Positions 23,372 through 29,919 of a stretch of DNA of 64,000 nt are shown here, piece by piece. A program made the position numbers and the translations under genes. Position 1 is the stretch's first letter; each line of letters starts with the position of its first letter. Origin of the DNA: Leptolyngbya sp. NIES-3755 (GTDB taxonomy: Bacteria; Cyanobacteriota; Cyanobacteriia; Leptolyngbyales; Leptolyngbyaceae); the NCBI GenBank assembly GCA_001548435.1, contig AP017308.1:1497030-1561029 (forward strand), written 5' to 3'. The notes under the pieces are model-generated. The model saw nothing but the letters and a program-made list of their open reading frames with translations. It did no database searches and was not told where the DNA came from.

Positions 23372-26107
23372 ATGACAACAGAAGATCAAAGACTCAAACA
23401 AAACCGTACAGGTCAAGTCGATTGGTACAAGTGGGGACCGTATCTTAGCGAACGCCAATGGGGAACGGTACGCGAAGATTATAGTTCTGATGGCAACGCT
23501 TGGAATTATTTTCCACATGACCATGCTCGATCGAGAGCCTACCGCTGGGGTGAAGATGGTTTAGGCGGCATCACGGACAACCACAATTTACTCTGTTTTG
23601 CGATCGCCTTGTGGAATGGTAAAGACCCGATTATCAAAGAGCGATTGTTTGGGTTAACTAACAGTGAAGGCAATCACGGCGAGGATGTGAAAGAGTATTA
23701 TTTCTACCTCGATAGTACGCCCACACACTCGTACATGAAGTATTTGTACAAGTACCCGCAGGCGACCTTTCCTTATGCGGATCTGGTTGAAACGAATCGA
23801 AACCGCGATCGCTATGAGTTAGAGTACGAGTTGCTGGATACAGGCATCTTTGATGACGATCGCTATTTTGATGTGTTCGTGGAATACGCTAAGGGGGATG
23901 CTGAAGATATCTTAATTCGGATTAGCATTGCAAATCGTGGTCCTGAAGCGGCTCCAATTCATCTATTACCAACACTCTGGTTTCGGAATACCTGGTCTTG
24001 GGAAAATGGTGGCGCAAAGCCCGTCATGACCCGGATCGAGGGAACGGGAAACAGTGTCGTTCATGCTCATATCAACGATTCGCTACTCGATAAGTATGTG
24101 CGTGATTACTACTTTTATTGTGATGGCGTAGCTCCATTGCTGTTCACTGAGAATGAAACGAACAATGAACGGCTCTTTGGCACAACGAATGCCAGCCCTT
24201 ATGTCAAGGATGGAATCAACAGTTATGTTGTGCATGGGCAGAAAGATGCTGTGAATCCGCATCATGGGGGCACGAAAGTTGCACCGCACTATGAAATGTC
24301 GATCGAGGCTGGAGAAACGAAGGTCATTCGCTTGCGGCTGACGAAATACAATCCAACCGAGATGGGTGATCCGTTTGGAATTGGTTTCGAGCAATCCTTT
24401 GCCGCACGAGTCAAGGAAGCAGACGAATTTTATGCAACAGTAATTCCGCCTGCGGTTCAAGAAGATGACGATCGAGCCAATGTGATGCGTCAAGCGCTCG
24501 CGGGCATGATGTGGACGAAACAATACTTTTACTATGATGTCGATCAGTGGCTCAGAGAACGAGGCGTAACTCCTTGGACAACGATCAAAGAGCGTCAGCA
24601 CATTCGGAACAATGATTGGTTCCACATGCTGAACGATGACATTGTTTCGATGCCTGATAAGTGGGAGTATCCTTGGTATGCCGCGTGGGATTTAGCGTTT
24701 CATGTGATTCCCATTAGCTTGATTGATCCCGATTTTGCGAAAGATCAATTGATGCTGATGTTACGAGAAGACTACCTGCATCCAAATGGGCAAATTCCCG
24801 CATATGAATGGAACTTTGGGGATGTGAATCCTCCGGTTCATGCGTTCGCAACTTGGGAAATTTACACCCGCGATCGAGAACGCAACAACGGTAAAGGCGA
24901 TATCGATTTCCTCAAATACGCTTTTTCTAAACTGGTGATTAACTTTACCTGGTGGGTGAATCGCAAAGACGAAGGCGGTAACAATCTCTTTCAAGGTGGA
25001 TTCCTCGGTTTAGATAACATTGGAGTGTTCGATCGTAGTGCGGCTCTTCCCACAGGTGGACACTTAGATCAAGCTGATGGAACCGCGTGGATGGTGTTCT
25101 TCAGCCAGCGAATGTTCCAAATTGCGATCGAGCTTGCTTTACACGATCCCTTGTACGAAGACTTTGCTATCAAGTTCTTTGAACACACGATGTGGATCGC
25201 AGGAGCAATGGATCGGATTGGCGACAATCATGATGAACTCTGGGACGAAGAAGACGGATTTTTCTATGATGTGTTGCACTTCCCGGATGGGCAATCGACG
25301 CGATTGAAAGTACGATCGCTCGTCGGTCTACTCTCGCTGATGGCAGTTGCAGTCTTTCCAAAAGAAGCCTTTGATAAACTTCCTCGCTTCAAAGAAGCTG
25401 CTCAGAAGTTCATCATGCAGCATCCCGAATTGACGCACAACATTCACTTACCGAATCAGTTTGGTGAACGCGATCGATTAATGCTGTCGGTCTTGAATGA
25501 GCATAAACTCCGACGTGTCTTGCACTATATGTTAGATGAATCAGAGTTTCTGAGTGACTACGGCATTCGTTCTTTATCGCGCCATCACTTAGAGAATCCC
25601 TATCGCTTCCACCACAATGGTCAAGAATACAAAGTGGGCTATGTTCCGGGTGATTCGACTTCTGGAATGTTTGGTGGCAACTCGAACTGGCGAGGTCCGA
25701 TCTGGATGCCTGTGAATCTGTTGTTACTACGATCGCTGTTGCAACTCTATAGCTACTACGGCGATAACTTCAAAATTGAGTACCCCACTGGATCAGGAAA
25801 TCAGAAAACGCTGTTTGAAATCACTCAGTGTATTAGTGAACGAATTGTCAGTATCTTTCTCAAAGATGAATCCGGTCGTCGCCCGGTTTATGGTGGGACG
25901 AAGAAGTTTCAGACTGATCCCCACTGGCGCGATTTAATTCTGTTCTATGAGTACTTCAATGGGGATGACGGAGCGGGTGTGGGAGCAAGTCACCAAACAG
26001 GATGGACGGGCTGTGTGGCTCGGATTATTCAAGCATTGGGTTATTTCACGCCAGAAACAGTGCTGAATACGATCGCACCTGGAGAACTGGAGAAGTATCG
26101 GGTTTAA
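23372..26107 (+). CDS. GH63-like glucosidase (MGH1-type glycoside hydrolase), 911 aa
   Basis: Starts MTTEDQRLKQNRTGQVDWYK and continues with GPYLSERQWGTVREDYS and FPHDHARSRAYRWGEDGLGG, a signature block of a bacterial family annotated as glucosidase or MGH1-like. The C-terminal (alpha/alpha)6 barrel half contains YPWYAAWDLAFH, GGFLGLDNIGVFDR and SNWRGPIWMPVN, as in GH63. No signal peptide, so probably cytoplasmic. It should cleave an alpha-glucoside or mannosylglycerate-like osmolyte; the exact substrate is not known. Monocistronic by spacing, 34 bases after hdeD. Confidence 0.85.
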   Translation: MTTEDQRLKQNRTGQVDWYKWGPYLSERQWGTVREDYSSDGNAWNYFPHDHARSRAYRWGEDGLGGITDNHNLLCFAIALWNGKDPIIKERLFGLTNSEGNHGEDVKEYYFYLDSTPTHSYMKYLYKYPQATFPYADLVETNRNRDRYELEYELLDTGIFDDDRYFDVFVEYAKGDAEDILIRISIANRGPEAAPIHLLPTLWFRNTWSWENGGAKPVMTRIEGTGNSVVHAHINDSLLDKYVRDYYFYCDGVAPLLFTENETNNERLFGTTNASPYVKDGINSYVVHGQKDAVNPHHGGTKVAPHYEMSIEAGETKVIRLRLTKYNPTEMGDPFGIGFEQSFAARVKEADEFYATVIPPAVQEDDDRANVMRQALAGMMWTKQYFYYDVDQWLRERGVTPWTTIKERQHIRNNDWFHMLNDDIVSMPDKWEYPWYAAWDLAFHVIPISLIDPDFAKDQLMLMLREDYLHPNGQIPAYEWNFGDVNPPVHAFATWEIYTRDRERNNGKGDIDFLKYAFSKLVINFTWWVNRKDEGGNNLFQGGFLGLDNIGVFDRSAALPTGGHLDQADGTAWMVFFSQRMFQIAIELALHDPLYEDFAIKFFEHTMWIAGAMDRIGDNHDELWDEEDGFFYDVLHFPDGQSTRLKVRSLVGLLSLMAVAVFPKEAFDKLPRFKEAAQKFIMQHPELTHNIHLPNQFGERDRLMLSVLNEHKLRRVLHYMLDESEFLSDYGIRSLSRHHLENPYRFHHNGQEYKVGYVPGDSTSGMFGGNSNWRGPIWMPVNLLLLRSLLQLYSYYGDNFKIEYPTGSGNQKTLFEITQCISERIVSIFLKDESGRRPVYGGTKKFQTDPHWRDLILFYEYFNGDDGAGVGASHQTGWTGCVARIIQALGYFTPETVLNTIAPGELEKYRV

Positions 26108-26650: not shown

Positions 26651-27112
26651 ATGAAGGCTTTACTGAGAAACTCGATCGGGATGATTAGCGCGATCGCATT
26701 TTTTGGAACGAATTCAGCGAGTGCAAACACAATGATTTCACTTTCTGGGAGTTGGCAGCTTGCAAATATGACCGCAGGGAACTCACCGATGCCGATGCTG
26801 CCTGCGGGTGACATTCCGTTAAGTGCAGAATTTTCAGACGGTCAGATTTTTGGTTCAGGCGGATGTAATCGATTTATTGGCGGTTATGAAGCAAAATCAG
26901 GAACCGTTAAGATTAGTACTCTTGCTTCTACCTTTATGGCTTGTGAAGAACCTATAATGAGCCAAGAAACACGGTTTCTCACTGCGCTGCAAGGTGCAGA
27001 ACGGTACGAGGTTGATCAAGGACAATTAACGATTTTTTATAAAACTGAACAGGGAGAAGGTGTTTTGCGCTTTGTCTCGCAAGGCTCCCAACCTGTTCCA
27101 GCTATGTGGTAG
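26651..27112 (+). CDS. META domain protein (HslJ-like), exported
   Basis: 153 residues: a signal peptide (MISAIAFFGTNSASA) and one META domain, recognised from SGSWQLANM, FSDGQIFGSGGCNRFIGGYE and the paired Cys in MACEEPIMSQETRFLTAL. META proteins include HslJ, involved in heat-shock and novobiocin response in E. coli. It is the middle gene of a three-gene run with the upstream secreted protein and the downstream ferredoxin-CNB protein. Confidence 0.85.
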   Translation: MKALLRNSIGMISAIAFFGTNSASANTMISLSGSWQLANMTAGNSPMPMLPAGDIPLSAEFSDGQIFGSGGCNRFIGGYEAKSGTVKISTLASTFMACEEPIMSQETRFLTALQGAERYEVDQGQLTIFYKTEQGEGVLRFVSQGSQPVPAMW

Positions 27113-27123
27113 GAGTTCTATTC

Positions 27124-29919
27124 ATGTTCGCACAACTGCCTGAACGCCGGATGCACTGGGTACGGTGGGTCTTAACGATCGGTTGGCTCCTCGTCATCGC
27201 TTCTCTGTTTTATGATCCTTGGACGGCAGCACTGACAGATCCCGCTCACCCTTGGAGTCCATTGCGGCTTACGGATCAGTGTGTTCAGGTGCAAGGCAGA
27301 TGTGTGGAACAACAGCCTTACCCGATTGGCGCAACGTTATTTTGGGGTGCGATCGTACCGTCTGGAATTTTCATTTTGCTGGTGTTTGGACATGAACTCT
27401 GGCGGCGAATTTGTCCACTGTCGTTTTTGTCCCAGATTCCAAGAGGATTGGGGAAACAGCGACAGTTCAAACGGGAAAATGCAAAAACGGGTAAGGTTCG
27501 CTATGAAATTGCAAAAGTGCCCTCTGATTCTTGGTTGGGCAAGAACTATCTCTATCTACAATTTGGGTATTTATTTATCGGACTATGCGGAAGAATTCTA
27601 TTCTTTAATGCCGATCGATTAGTTTTAGGACTGTGGCTCTTGTTGACGATTGGAGCCGCGATCTGGGTGGGTTACTACTATGGTGGTAAGTCCTGGTGTC
27701 AATATTTCTGTCCGATGGCTCCAGTGCAGACGATTTTTAGTGAACCGCGAGGATTGCTCGGAAGTAAGGCACACATGAGCGAACAGCGGATCACACAATC
27801 AATGTGTCGAACTGTGGAGTCTGATGGTAATGAGCAAAGTGCTTGTGTTGCTTGTCAGAGTCCTTGCATTGATATTGATTCCGAGCGGACTTACTGGAAC
27901 GGCTTGAACAATCCTGAAGAAGCTGTGATTCGATATGGTTATGTTGGTTTAGTCGTGGGTTACTTCGTTTACTACTACTTATATGCGGGGAACTGGGACT
28001 ATTACTTTTCGGGCGTGTGGAACCGCGATCCAAATCAGCTTGCCTCATTAATGAGTCCAGGATTGTACTTGTTTGGGCAACCGATTAATATTCCAAAGCT
28101 CTTTGCTGTACCGCTTGTTCTGGGCGGATTTAGTGCGATCGGGTATTTTTTGGGAACCTGGATCGAACGGCAAGTTAAAGCATACGATCGACAACATCAC
28201 AAGAACTCAGATCCCGATCTAATTCGACATCGGATTTTTGTGATTTGTACCTTTGCAGTGTTCAACTTCTTCTTCTTGTTCGCAGGTCGTCCGTTACTCC
28301 AACTCACTCCGATTTGGGTGCAGTACGGTTTTGATCTCAGCATTGTTTTTCTCAGTACCTTGTGGCTGCAAAAATCTTGGCGACGTAGCGCTGATCTCTA
28401 TTCACGAGAAAATCTAGCAAGCCGATTTCGGAAGCAGCTTGAGAAATTACAGATTAATGTCTCTCAGTATCTCGATGGTCGATCGCTCGATGATTTGAAC
28501 ACCAATGAAGTGTATGTGCTTGCAAAAGTTCTTCCTGGTTTTAGCCAAGAGAAACGGCACGAAGCTTACAAAGGTGTAGTTCGAGAAGCATTAGAAGAAG
28601 GCTATGTCAGTACTTCTAGTAGTCTTGAAGTTCTCCAGCAAATGCGCCATGAGCTAGGCATTTCTGATGATGAACACCGAGAAGTTTTAGAAGAATTGGG
28701 CGTAGAAGATCCAGAATTGCTCAATCCTAACTATCAGCGATCGCTAGAAAATCAAATCCGTCTGACAGGCTATCAAAAATCCTTAGAGCGATTTCTCCGA
28801 TTGCAGCAGCAAATTAGTGCAACTGAGTTCACCCCCTCCACTGAAGAATCAAATGCGATTCGTGCGTTGCGGCGTGACTATTCGATTACTCCTCAAGAAG
28901 AAGATTGGGTACTGAGCGGATTTGCGCCAGATGCAGGCAATACTCAGAAGGCAGAATCGTTATTGGCTCGGTTAGCAGAGTGGAGTACGTGCGATCGTGC
29001 TCTCAATCATCCGAGCCTTGATTCTGCAATCTCACAGCTTTTACATCAAGGAGTTCAACACAAACGGGAATTGATTGTGCGATCGATTCTAGAAATTCTC
29101 GTGGCGCTGAAAGACCAACCGAGCGCGATCACCCTTGCTCGATCGCTCAAACAACTCTCGCCACAACTCACATCTGAATTAGTCAGTCAGAAACCTTGGC
29201 AAGCCCACTTAAACCGCAGCATTGTAGAGATACTAATTCAGCCTCAAGCGCTAGAGTCCACGAATGCAGACGTATCCACACAAGATACAGTCAGCTACCT
29301 CGAAACCTTGTTAGAACATTACAATCCGGTGATGCAAGTGGCAGCGCTATTTGCGATCGCTCAACTCGATTTCCAACGTGCTCAAACTCTGGCTCAAACG
29401 ATTCAGCCTGACTCGTCTTTATTGCGCGACACCGCAGAACGGTTACTCTCTTTGTCATCTTCCCCGGCTTTGACAGAGTTTCCAGCGCTCGAAAAGTTGG
29501 TGCATTTATCGAACAATGATTTCTTCGATCGAGTTCAGATTGATACTCTCATCGCATTAGGCGATCGCTCAGAGATGAAAACCTACACTAAAGGCAATGT
29601 GATCACTGAAGCAGGTGATACTTGTCGAGAATTGCTGCTGTTGATCGAAGGGGCTGCAATCATTCAAGGCACAGATGGAGAAACAACCACCAGAGTCGAT
29701 CGATTGCATCCTGGACAAATCTTGGATGAACTCGAAGCATTAACGCATAGCACTTTGGAGAATACGATTTTGGCGGAAAGCGATCGAACTCGAATTCTGG
29801 CAATTCCGGTCGATGCACTCGATGATTTATTAGAGCGCGATGTTAATTTTGCCCGACGATTTTTAGATCTTGAAGGTCGGCAACTTCAACGACTTGTGAA
29901 ATTAGGAGCGCAGGCTTGA
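27124..29919 (+). CDS. Membrane ferredoxin (NapH/CcoG-like) fused to HEAT-like and cyclic-nucleotide-binding domains
   Basis: 931 residues from ATG 27124, chosen because TAGGAG lies eight bases upstream and overlaps the META stop. The N-terminal ~420 residues carry several transmembrane helices and cysteine motifs of polyferredoxin-type membrane proteins: RRICPLSFLSQIPR, WCQYFCPMAPVQT and SACVACQSPCIDID. The middle is helical, with HEAT-like repeats (VMQVAALFAIAQLDFQRAQT). The C-terminus is a CNB/Crp fold (YTKGNVITEAGDTCRELLLL, LHPGQILDELEALT). It probably passes electrons to or from an Fe-S cluster, gated by a cyclic nucleotide; this is inference. It is the last gene of its run. Confidence 0.8.
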   Translation: MFAQLPERRMHWVRWVLTIGWLLVIASLFYDPWTAALTDPAHPWSPLRLTDQCVQVQGRCVEQQPYPIGATLFWGAIVPSGIFILLVFGHELWRRICPLSFLSQIPRGLGKQRQFKRENAKTGKVRYEIAKVPSDSWLGKNYLYLQFGYLFIGLCGRILFFNADRLVLGLWLLLTIGAAIWVGYYYGGKSWCQYFCPMAPVQTIFSEPRGLLGSKAHMSEQRITQSMCRTVESDGNEQSACVACQSPCIDIDSERTYWNGLNNPEEAVIRYGYVGLVVGYFVYYYLYAGNWDYYFSGVWNRDPNQLASLMSPGLYLFGQPINIPKLFAVPLVLGGFSAIGYFLGTWIERQVKAYDRQHHKNSDPDLIRHRIFVICTFAVFNFFFLFAGRPLLQLTPIWVQYGFDLSIVFLSTLWLQKSWRRSADLYSRENLASRFRKQLEKLQINVSQYLDGRSLDDLNTNEVYVLAKVLPGFSQEKRHEAYKGVVREALEEGYVSTSSSLEVLQQMRHELGISDDEHREVLEELGVEDPELLNPNYQRSLENQIRLTGYQKSLERFLRLQQQISATEFTPSTEESNAIRALRRDYSITPQEEDWVLSGFAPDAGNTQKAESLLARLAEWSTCDRALNHPSLDSAISQLLHQGVQHKRELIVRSILEILVALKDQPSAITLARSLKQLSPQLTSELVSQKPWQAHLNRSIVEILIQPQALESTNADVSTQDTVSYLETLLEHYNPVMQVAALFAIAQLDFQRAQTLAQTIQPDSSLLRDTAERLLSLSSSPALTEFPALEKLVHLSNNDFFDRVQIDTLIALGDRSEMKTYTKGNVITEAGDTCRELLLLIEGAAIIQGTDGETTTRVDRLHPGQILDELEALTHSTLENTILAESDRTRILAIPVDALDDLLERDVNFARRFLDLEGRQLQRLVKLGAQA

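Follow-up and report, generated by a model that had tools for sequence, protein, structure and literature searches.

The membrane modules of NapH, NosR and RdhC are defined by two CX3CP motifs, and in NapH and NosR two 4Fe-4S binding motifs follow the membrane part, according to the available portion of PMC5928378. Among the inorganic carbon (Ci) uptake systems of cyanobacteria, BCT1 and BicA gave no uptake in Escherichia coli, additional or outside regulators may be needed, and control in the dark is poorly understood, as far as the accessible text of three papers goes (PMC4275256, PMC11349869, PMC13249358). The PII-like carbon-control protein SbtB is a regulator that receives redox input and is connected with several Ci transporters, and appears in the accessible text as a soluble PII-like trimer without a membrane or iron-sulfur (Fe-S) part (PMC13249358, PMC10117731). 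In the available part of PMC10710835, cyclic-nucleotide-binding (CNB) domains are fused to MFS transporters, proteins other than the one described here.

We analyzed the gene at positions 27124..29919 (+ strand) of a 64,000-nucleotide stretch of the Leptolyngbya sp. NIES-3755 genome (contig AP017308.1), the whole of which is called the window. The open reading frame contains no internal stops and agrees with its translation in giving a single chain of 931 residues at the coordinates stated in the first-pass annotation. The chain joins a membrane module rich in conserved cysteines to a helical solenoid and a C-terminal CNB domain. Orthologues of this gene lie repeatedly beside Ci uptake genes, and we tentatively propose that the product assists the cyanobacterial CO2-concentrating mechanism as an accessory protein, with a redox module and a CNB-like domain that would switch Ci uptake. 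It would be tied to several Ci transporters as SbtB is, but unlike SbtB it has a membrane part with Fe-S-type cysteines. No earlier description of the family was found, and the link to the carbon-concentrating mechanism is strong and testable. The literature covered, which left out most subscription journals, gave no account joining a membrane Fe-S/CNB protein with Ci uptake, or cmpABCD with a cyclic nucleotide. It yielded nothing direct on light activation, and searches with guessed Synechocystis locus tags gave no lead; we claim no orthologue in PCC 6803.

Inorganic carbon uptake genes beside the orthologues

Relatives were collected by a pattern-plus-tblastn scan of genome contigs, and the best 80 of the 196 relatives, which were kept, were all cyanobacterial. 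From 200 loci (L031-L230), three (L061, L067 and L088) fell out because their anchor was lost when genes were called greedily, and 26 duplicates were dropped, leaving 171; the short stretches L001-L030 do not enter the neighbour counts, and the window protein itself stands outside the 171. These loci comprise 119 full orthologues (longer than 800 residues, aligned past residue 880 and more than 43% identical), 18 divergent long members and 34 called short. In a FastTree tree of the first 600 residues, several branches of which were weakly supported, 21 of the 34 fell in paralogue clades and 13 were shortened or fragmentary members of the orthologue clade (L060, L069, L070, L086, L181, L186, L187, L189, L190, L192, L208, L209 and L210). 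The 52 other homologue loci are therefore 39 true paralogues and these 13.

All 171 loci were compared with one panel of Ci proteins, and a second, looser pass over the same loci was made for CmpD and partial genes. A Ci uptake gene or a cmpD relic was found nearby in 31/119 orthologue loci and in 0/52 other homologue loci, the linkage looked for in a component of the CO2-concentrating mechanism, though the window's own locus does not show it. Counting the 13 shortened members as orthologues gave 31/132 and 0/39. The system involved was CmpABCD in 22 of the linked loci, CupA/NDH-1 in 7, BicA in 3 and SbtA in 3, some loci having two. In 29 linked loci, all but L127 and L143, the gene or relic was no more than about 1 kb away. 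With the panel, CmpA, CmpB and CmpC were each detected in 17/119 full loci and 0/52 others; BicA and SbtA (3 full loci each) and CupA and NdhF3 (6 each) were likewise absent from the others, and NdhD3 was detected in 7 full loci and 1 other. The second pass added L063, L142, L144, L166 and L170 to the Cmp loci and L152 to the CupA loci, while complete ABC-ATPases in L038, L063, L078, L080, L132, L139, L149, L168 and L200 were not counted as CmpD owing to low identity (26-42%) or location elsewhere. Of the full loci flanked by 2.5 kb or more on each side, 24/86 were Ci-linked. Four controls cut against a clean split: an NdhD-like gene occurs in one divergent locus (L201), a cyclase-like gene in one orthologue locus (L148) and SMP-30-like genes in 10 full loci and one short locus, and the kinase panel protein matches in 6 full loci.

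The identity of the neighbours was checked on samples and otherwise taken from tblastn identity (CmpA 52-66% to the L104 protein). The binding proteins of L104 and L064 scored 629 and 532 bits against CmpA (2i48) and 431 and 390 bits against NrtA (2g29), respectively. Nitrate uptake by nrtABCD-like ABC genes was rejected on this ground, since the binding protein was far closer to CmpA in both cases tested. An OprB porin gene among the cmp genes of L169, L172, L176 and L177 (Pfam OprB for the L177 copy) was also counted against nitrate uptake; Synechocystis slr0040-slr0044 is presumably a precedent for this arrangement. The BicA equivalog model was matched above its cut-off in L168 and L049 and chpXY in L155 and L064, and SbtA of L170 scored 654 bits against 7cye.

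The arrangement of the linked genes varied. Operon-like placement, with a same-strand cmpD ending some 26-300 bp ahead of the gene, was seen in L064, L089, L099, L104, L166 (truncated at the contig end) and L182. In ten loci (L169, L171-L174 and L176-L180) cmpA stands head-to-head with the gene, in L123 the gene precedes cmpA, and in L127 a distance of about 4.5-9 kb separates it from the cmp genes, which are on the other strand. Elsewhere only fragments of cmpD are left: in L063 a 32-residue tail precedes the gene, in L170 two pieces that differ in frame precede it, and in L142 and L144 a 72-residue tail follows it by 34 bp. These four loci look as if the remaining cmp operon had been lost. 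In L049, L168 and L183 the family gene is preceded, at 0.14-1 kb, by a same-strand gene for BicA. That for SbtA stands immediately before it on the same strand in L050, follows it at 0.6 kb in L170 and is 1.6 kb off on the opposite strand in L143. Four loci (L152, L153, L155 and L156) have a same-strand CupA gene 0.6-0.9 kb upstream, and three (L064, L089 and L168) have one on the opposite strand at 1.7-4.2 kb. A DUF362 gene was also seen 119-175 bp downstream on the same strand in L172, L174, L176, L177, L178 and L180, which are closely related and have the head-to-head cmpA.

On the tree, the Ci label changed 11 times within the full group, gains and losses together. The number of linked loci expected by chance was roughly estimated: by hand, three to five Ci loci per genome would put a Ci gene beside about 1-2% of randomly placed genes, or about 2/119, and a computed estimate, also rough, gave 1.6 of 119 with 2.8 Ci loci per genome. 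Among 96 genomes searched, CmpA/NrtA-type matches were found in 75, BicA/SulP in 61, SbtA in 42 and CupA/CupB in 90. A comparison of coordinates by hand, in which rows too weak for listing were left unclassed, assigned a full-type gene to 22 of the 96. A Ci gene was found within 10 kb on the same contig in 7/22 (CmpA in G041, G050, G052, G083 and G094, CupA in G105 and SbtA in G109), and at least 2 of the 15 misses fell on short or cut contigs (G068 and G103).

Membrane module, solenoid and CNB domain

An AlphaFold2 model built with 64 sequences (mean pLDDT 82, pTM 0.61) placed eight membrane-length helices before residue 420, further helices over residues ~573-797, a beta-roll over residues 817-895 and a helix at the C-terminus. 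The membrane module (27124..28413, +) contains eight predicted transmembrane (TM) helices at residues 7-29, 68-96, 137-161, 165-186, 264-288, 325-358, 364-386 and 397-419. In the Pfam search of the window protein only CNB scored above its cut-off, the matches to Fer4_5 (residues 171-210), HEAT_2 and ENT being weak and below theirs; no NCBIfam model attained its cut-off. The HEAT-like repeats of the first-pass annotation have weak sequence support (HEAT_2, 16.9 bits against a cut-off of 27.7), and the modelled helices of residues ~573-797 (28840..29514, +) are in agreement with such a solenoid.

Nine cysteines are conserved in the membrane module: C192, C196, C228, C241, C244 and C248 in 171/171 homologues, C97 in 169/171 (2 gaps) and C53 and C60 in 168/171 (3 gaps). 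The last two form a C53-x6-C60 pair in a beta-hairpin (27280..27303, +), with a spacing of 6 in all 169 sequences that hold both, the window protein included. The first Cys-Pro loop, H90-xx-W93-xxx-C97-P98 (27391..27417, +), follows the pattern HxxWxxxCP in 169/171 homologues, and the second, C192-x3-C196-P197 (27697..27714, +), supplies the only CX3CP of each sequence in 171/171 and lies in the Fer4_5 match. This match reached 18.4 bits in the window protein (cut-off 22), and all 63 aligned members matched Fer4_5 at E<=0.1. Next comes C228-x12-C241-xx-C244-xxx-C248 (27805..27867, +), a likely 4Fe-4S ligand set situated in a loop of low pLDDT; a single C-x(8-40)-CxxCxxxC was present in 168/171 homologues.

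NapH/MauN, CcoG (RdxA/FixG), NosR and RdhC/PceC share with the window protein an arrangement of TM helices whose Cys-Pro loops precede a cysteine set of the Fe-S type. In NapH and NosR the 4Fe-4S motif is spelled CxxCxxCxxxC. This family differs from the NapH/CcoG type in having one CX3CP instead of two, with HxxWxxxCP in the other loop, C-x12-CxxCxxxC in place of CxxCxxCxxxC motifs (0/172 sequences, window protein included), and eight predicted helices with a fused solenoid and CNB domain. The napH model (TIGR02163) gave 12.7 bits against a cut-off of 213.05 with the window protein and weak matches in 39/63 members at E<=0.1, and the CcoG/RdxA/FixG model (TIGR02745) gave no match to the window protein at E<=1 and weak matches in 13/63 members at E<=0.1 (best E 0.008). 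The weak matches are a point of likeness, and the first-pass description of the motifs as typical of NapH/CcoG is partly right.

Modelled alone, the membrane module (pLDDT 77, pTM 0.80) had no Foldseek match below E 0.6 among PDB structures and a best VIA Z of 4.7, although a missing match by itself proves nothing, and a profile search against PDB sequences gave nothing below E 0.87. By hydropathy and the positive-inside rule, the two ends of the module are predicted to be cytoplasmic, as are C97, C192, C196 and C228-C248, and the C53/C60 hairpin is predicted on the other side.

The C-terminal CNB fold claimed by the first-pass annotation was confirmed. Residues 819-906 matched Pfam CNB (PF00027) with 43.6 bits against a cut-off of 27.5, and residues 798-931 of the model aligned with the CRP-family chain 7ets_A in VIA-align (Z 14.6, 127 residues, rmsd 3.0). 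Its beta-roll (residues 817-895; 29572..29808, +) and C-helix are shared with CNB domains of the CRP/FNR and PKG/HCN types (Z 12.4-14.6 over 117-141 residues, for rows without long insertions). It differs from these in lacking the Arg of the phosphate-binding cassette and in having Cys834 (29623..29625, +), which is specific to the orthologues (117/119, against 0/18 divergent paralogues); a DNA-binding domain as in CRP/FNR was not found in the window protein by the Pfam search.

The cassette itself (29713..29775, +) is degenerate. Glu869 is kept in 119/119 orthologues, while the Arg column is occupied by Leu878 in the window protein and lacks Arg in 118/119 orthologues. Because Arg is present in only one of them (L188), the orthologue CNB domain has probably lost the sensing of cyclic nucleotides, and control of the window protein by cAMP or cGMP is not supported. 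The first-pass annotation had named the absence of this Arg from all homologues as telling against its own proposal; that absence is nearly complete in the orthologues, and 13/18 divergent paralogues retain the residue.

Proposed role of the protein and alternative explanations

Within the CO2-concentrating mechanism, the most likely role of the protein is the redox-responsive control of Ci uptake, and we infer the following mechanism. Photosynthetic carriers (ferredoxin, NAD(P)H or quinol) would supply electrons that set the redox state of the module, presumably held by Fe-S clusters on its cysteines, and this state would be relayed to the CNB-like domain with the helical solenoid as the link. 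Through a putative contact with the transporters, the CNB-like domain would then activate a Ci uptake system (CmpABCD, BicA, SbtA or the CO2-hydrating NDH-1) in the light and inactivate it in darkness. The putative Fe-S cysteines would lie on the cytoplasmic face and the Cys pair on the other, the CNB-like domain being cytoplasmic. Redox-responsive control is preferred to a plain electron carrier on two grounds: conservation extends to the large second half of the protein, and the linked systems have little in common beyond Ci uptake. A bolder form of the proposal, which we consider unlikely as it stands, is that this membrane Fe-S protein is a missing light/redox activator, which would read photosynthetic electron pressure and license BCT1, BicA, SbtA or the CO2-hydrating NDH-1 via a nucleotide-independent CNB domain, the sister subfamily working in a similar way with a real cyclic nucleotide from a nearby heme-domain cyclase.

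If true, control of this kind would help to explain the silence of BCT1 and BicA in E. coli and the stop of Ci uptake in the dark in cyanobacteria that carry the gene, and it would bear on the transfer of carbon pumps into crop chloroplasts. The lead is invisible in the window sequence alone and emerged from the neighbourhoods of the orthologues; one conserved gene repeatedly linked to four Ci uptake systems opens the question of Ci control to direct knock-out and co-expression tests.

Several observations weigh against a role in Ci uptake. The panel was picked after the neighbourhoods had been seen, and no Ci gene was seen in the stretches fetched for 88/119 orthologue loci, nor in the window. 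When the 68 families found within 3 kb of the gene were ranked without supervision, an SMP-30-like gene tied with CmpC for the top (6 changes), followed by CmpB and a response-regulator family (5 changes), GH63, META and SDR (4 changes) and CmpA, CupA, BicA and SbtA (3 changes each). A general need for the protein in Ci uptake is excluded, because only 151 genomes in an even draw of 291 of the class had some family match at E<=0.001; in a draw of 117 genomes of the phylum, 16 matched the membrane module at E<=1e-20, all 16 in the same class. The chemistry of the module is guessed from motifs because no fold match was obtained. Finally, the accessible text of PMC13249358 names other controls of the transporters, namely phosphorylation, SbtB, which binds each of the three HCO3- systems, and CmpC, which senses nitrate; the window protein is therefore not the sole candidate regulator.

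The paralogues provide the ground for a different explanation. A gene for a reductase with FHA, FAD, NAD and 2Fe-2S domains adjoins 20/34 members called short, all 20 being within the 21 true short paralogues, and 6/18 divergent members. Because the short paralogues pair with this reductase gene, the module plausibly handles electrons, which strengthens the membrane electron transfer of the first-pass annotation, with which the conserved cysteines also fit, while its control by cAMP or cGMP is not supported. The protein could then be an electron-transfer enzyme and not a regulator. As an oxidoreductase it would move electrons from ferredoxin or NAD(P)H to quinone, or across the membrane, and would thereby supply ATP through cyclic flow or provide an electron valve under CO2 shortage, and its gene would travel with low-CO2 genes since both are needed then. 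We regard this as unlikely but serious because of the paralogues' pairing with the reductase, and the cysteines are conserved across all subfamilies. It is weakened by the absence of the FHA-reductase gene from all 119 orthologue loci (other reductases were not sought), and the large conserved half formed by the solenoid and CNB domain is hard to square with a plain carrier. The original idea, that cAMP or cGMP on the CNB domain gates electron transfer, draws on the confirmed fold and the invariant Glu869, and is nevertheless highly improbable given the lost Arg, the more so as the sequences that keep it belong to other subfamilies, seven of them near a cyclase gene.

The conserved C53-x6-C60 pair, present in all subfamilies and predicted to lie opposite the other cysteines, would also suit a maturation or assembly factor that passes electrons or disulfides outward to extracytoplasmic uptake proteins, with the Fe-S-type cysteines as the cytosolic input. 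The same pair occurs in paralogues without a Ci link, and BicA and SbtA are single membrane proteins with, to our knowledge, no need of such maturation; we find this explanation very unlikely. Somewhat less improbable, though still doubtful, is that the linkage reflects hitchhiking or shared low-CO2 transcription and that the protein serves another role, such as general redox or stress signalling. The many unlinked loci favour this, as does the window's lineage, in which the gene stands among SMP-30-like, GH63, META, SDR and signalling genes. It accords poorly with the involvement of four different Ci systems in varied orientations, with the 11 changes on the tree and with the low number of linked loci expected, on a rough estimate, by chance. 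Redox-responsive control of Ci uptake remains the reading that we prefer.

Paralogous subfamilies and the window locus

The window genome itself carries a short paralogue (L111, C1:925983-927581), one of 20 without a CNB domain that stand beside the reductase gene, often with a kinase-WD40 gene. L111 has the same membrane module as the window protein (47% identity over 537 aligned residues) but differs from it in having no CNB domain and other gene partners. By clustering, the kinase gene was found in 14 short loci, the copy tested having Pkinase and WD40 domains; a looser tblastn count of the kinase panel protein, which has WD40 repeats, gave 21 short and 6 full loci. In seven divergent loci (L191, L194, L195, L196, L198, L200 and L203) the stretch contains a gene with Tll0287 (heme-type) and guanylate-cyclase domains, mostly adjacent, and all seven members (7/7) keep the cassette Arg. 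The cyclic-nucleotide idea may hold for this paralogous subfamily. A related cyclase-like gene occurs at the orthologue locus L148, where the Arg is absent, and a paralogue from the same genome as L194 (L022) also has an FHA domain. These partners suggest that the family combines a membrane redox module with signal inputs of various kinds.

No gene of the Ci panel lies in the window, where only META and GH63 gave matches. Elsewhere in this genome (G000) there are CmpA-type matches 70% and 60% identical to that of L104, and CupA/CupB lie about 90 kb from the gene; no BicA was found at E<=1e-60 and no SbtA at E<=1e-40. If the Ci function holds in this genome, the partner would be BCT1 or NDH-1, without linkage.

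Directly upstream, a META-domain gene (26651..27112, +; Pfam META, 78.4 bits) ends 11 bases before the ATG, a gap compatible with putative co-transcription. This neighbour is present in only part of the family, META lying less than 500 bp upstream on the same strand in 4/119 orthologue loci, and the secreted 171-residue protein was found in 2/119, not in place. Conservation of the three-gene run with META and a secreted protein, which the first-pass annotation had described, was rejected accordingly.

Two irregular copies of the gene were noted: one, at G041:C53:32349-35239, looks broken into multiple pieces, has a CmpA-type gene about 4.5 kb away and is not among the 119, and the other, L048 (G001), looks split into two open pieces with the first 75 residues in a separate frame. 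In the window, positions 23372-26107 encode a 911-residue MGH1-like/GH63 glycoside hydrolase that is 82-86% identical in 5 orthologue loci and belongs to a lineage island with SMP-30-like, SDR and META genes.

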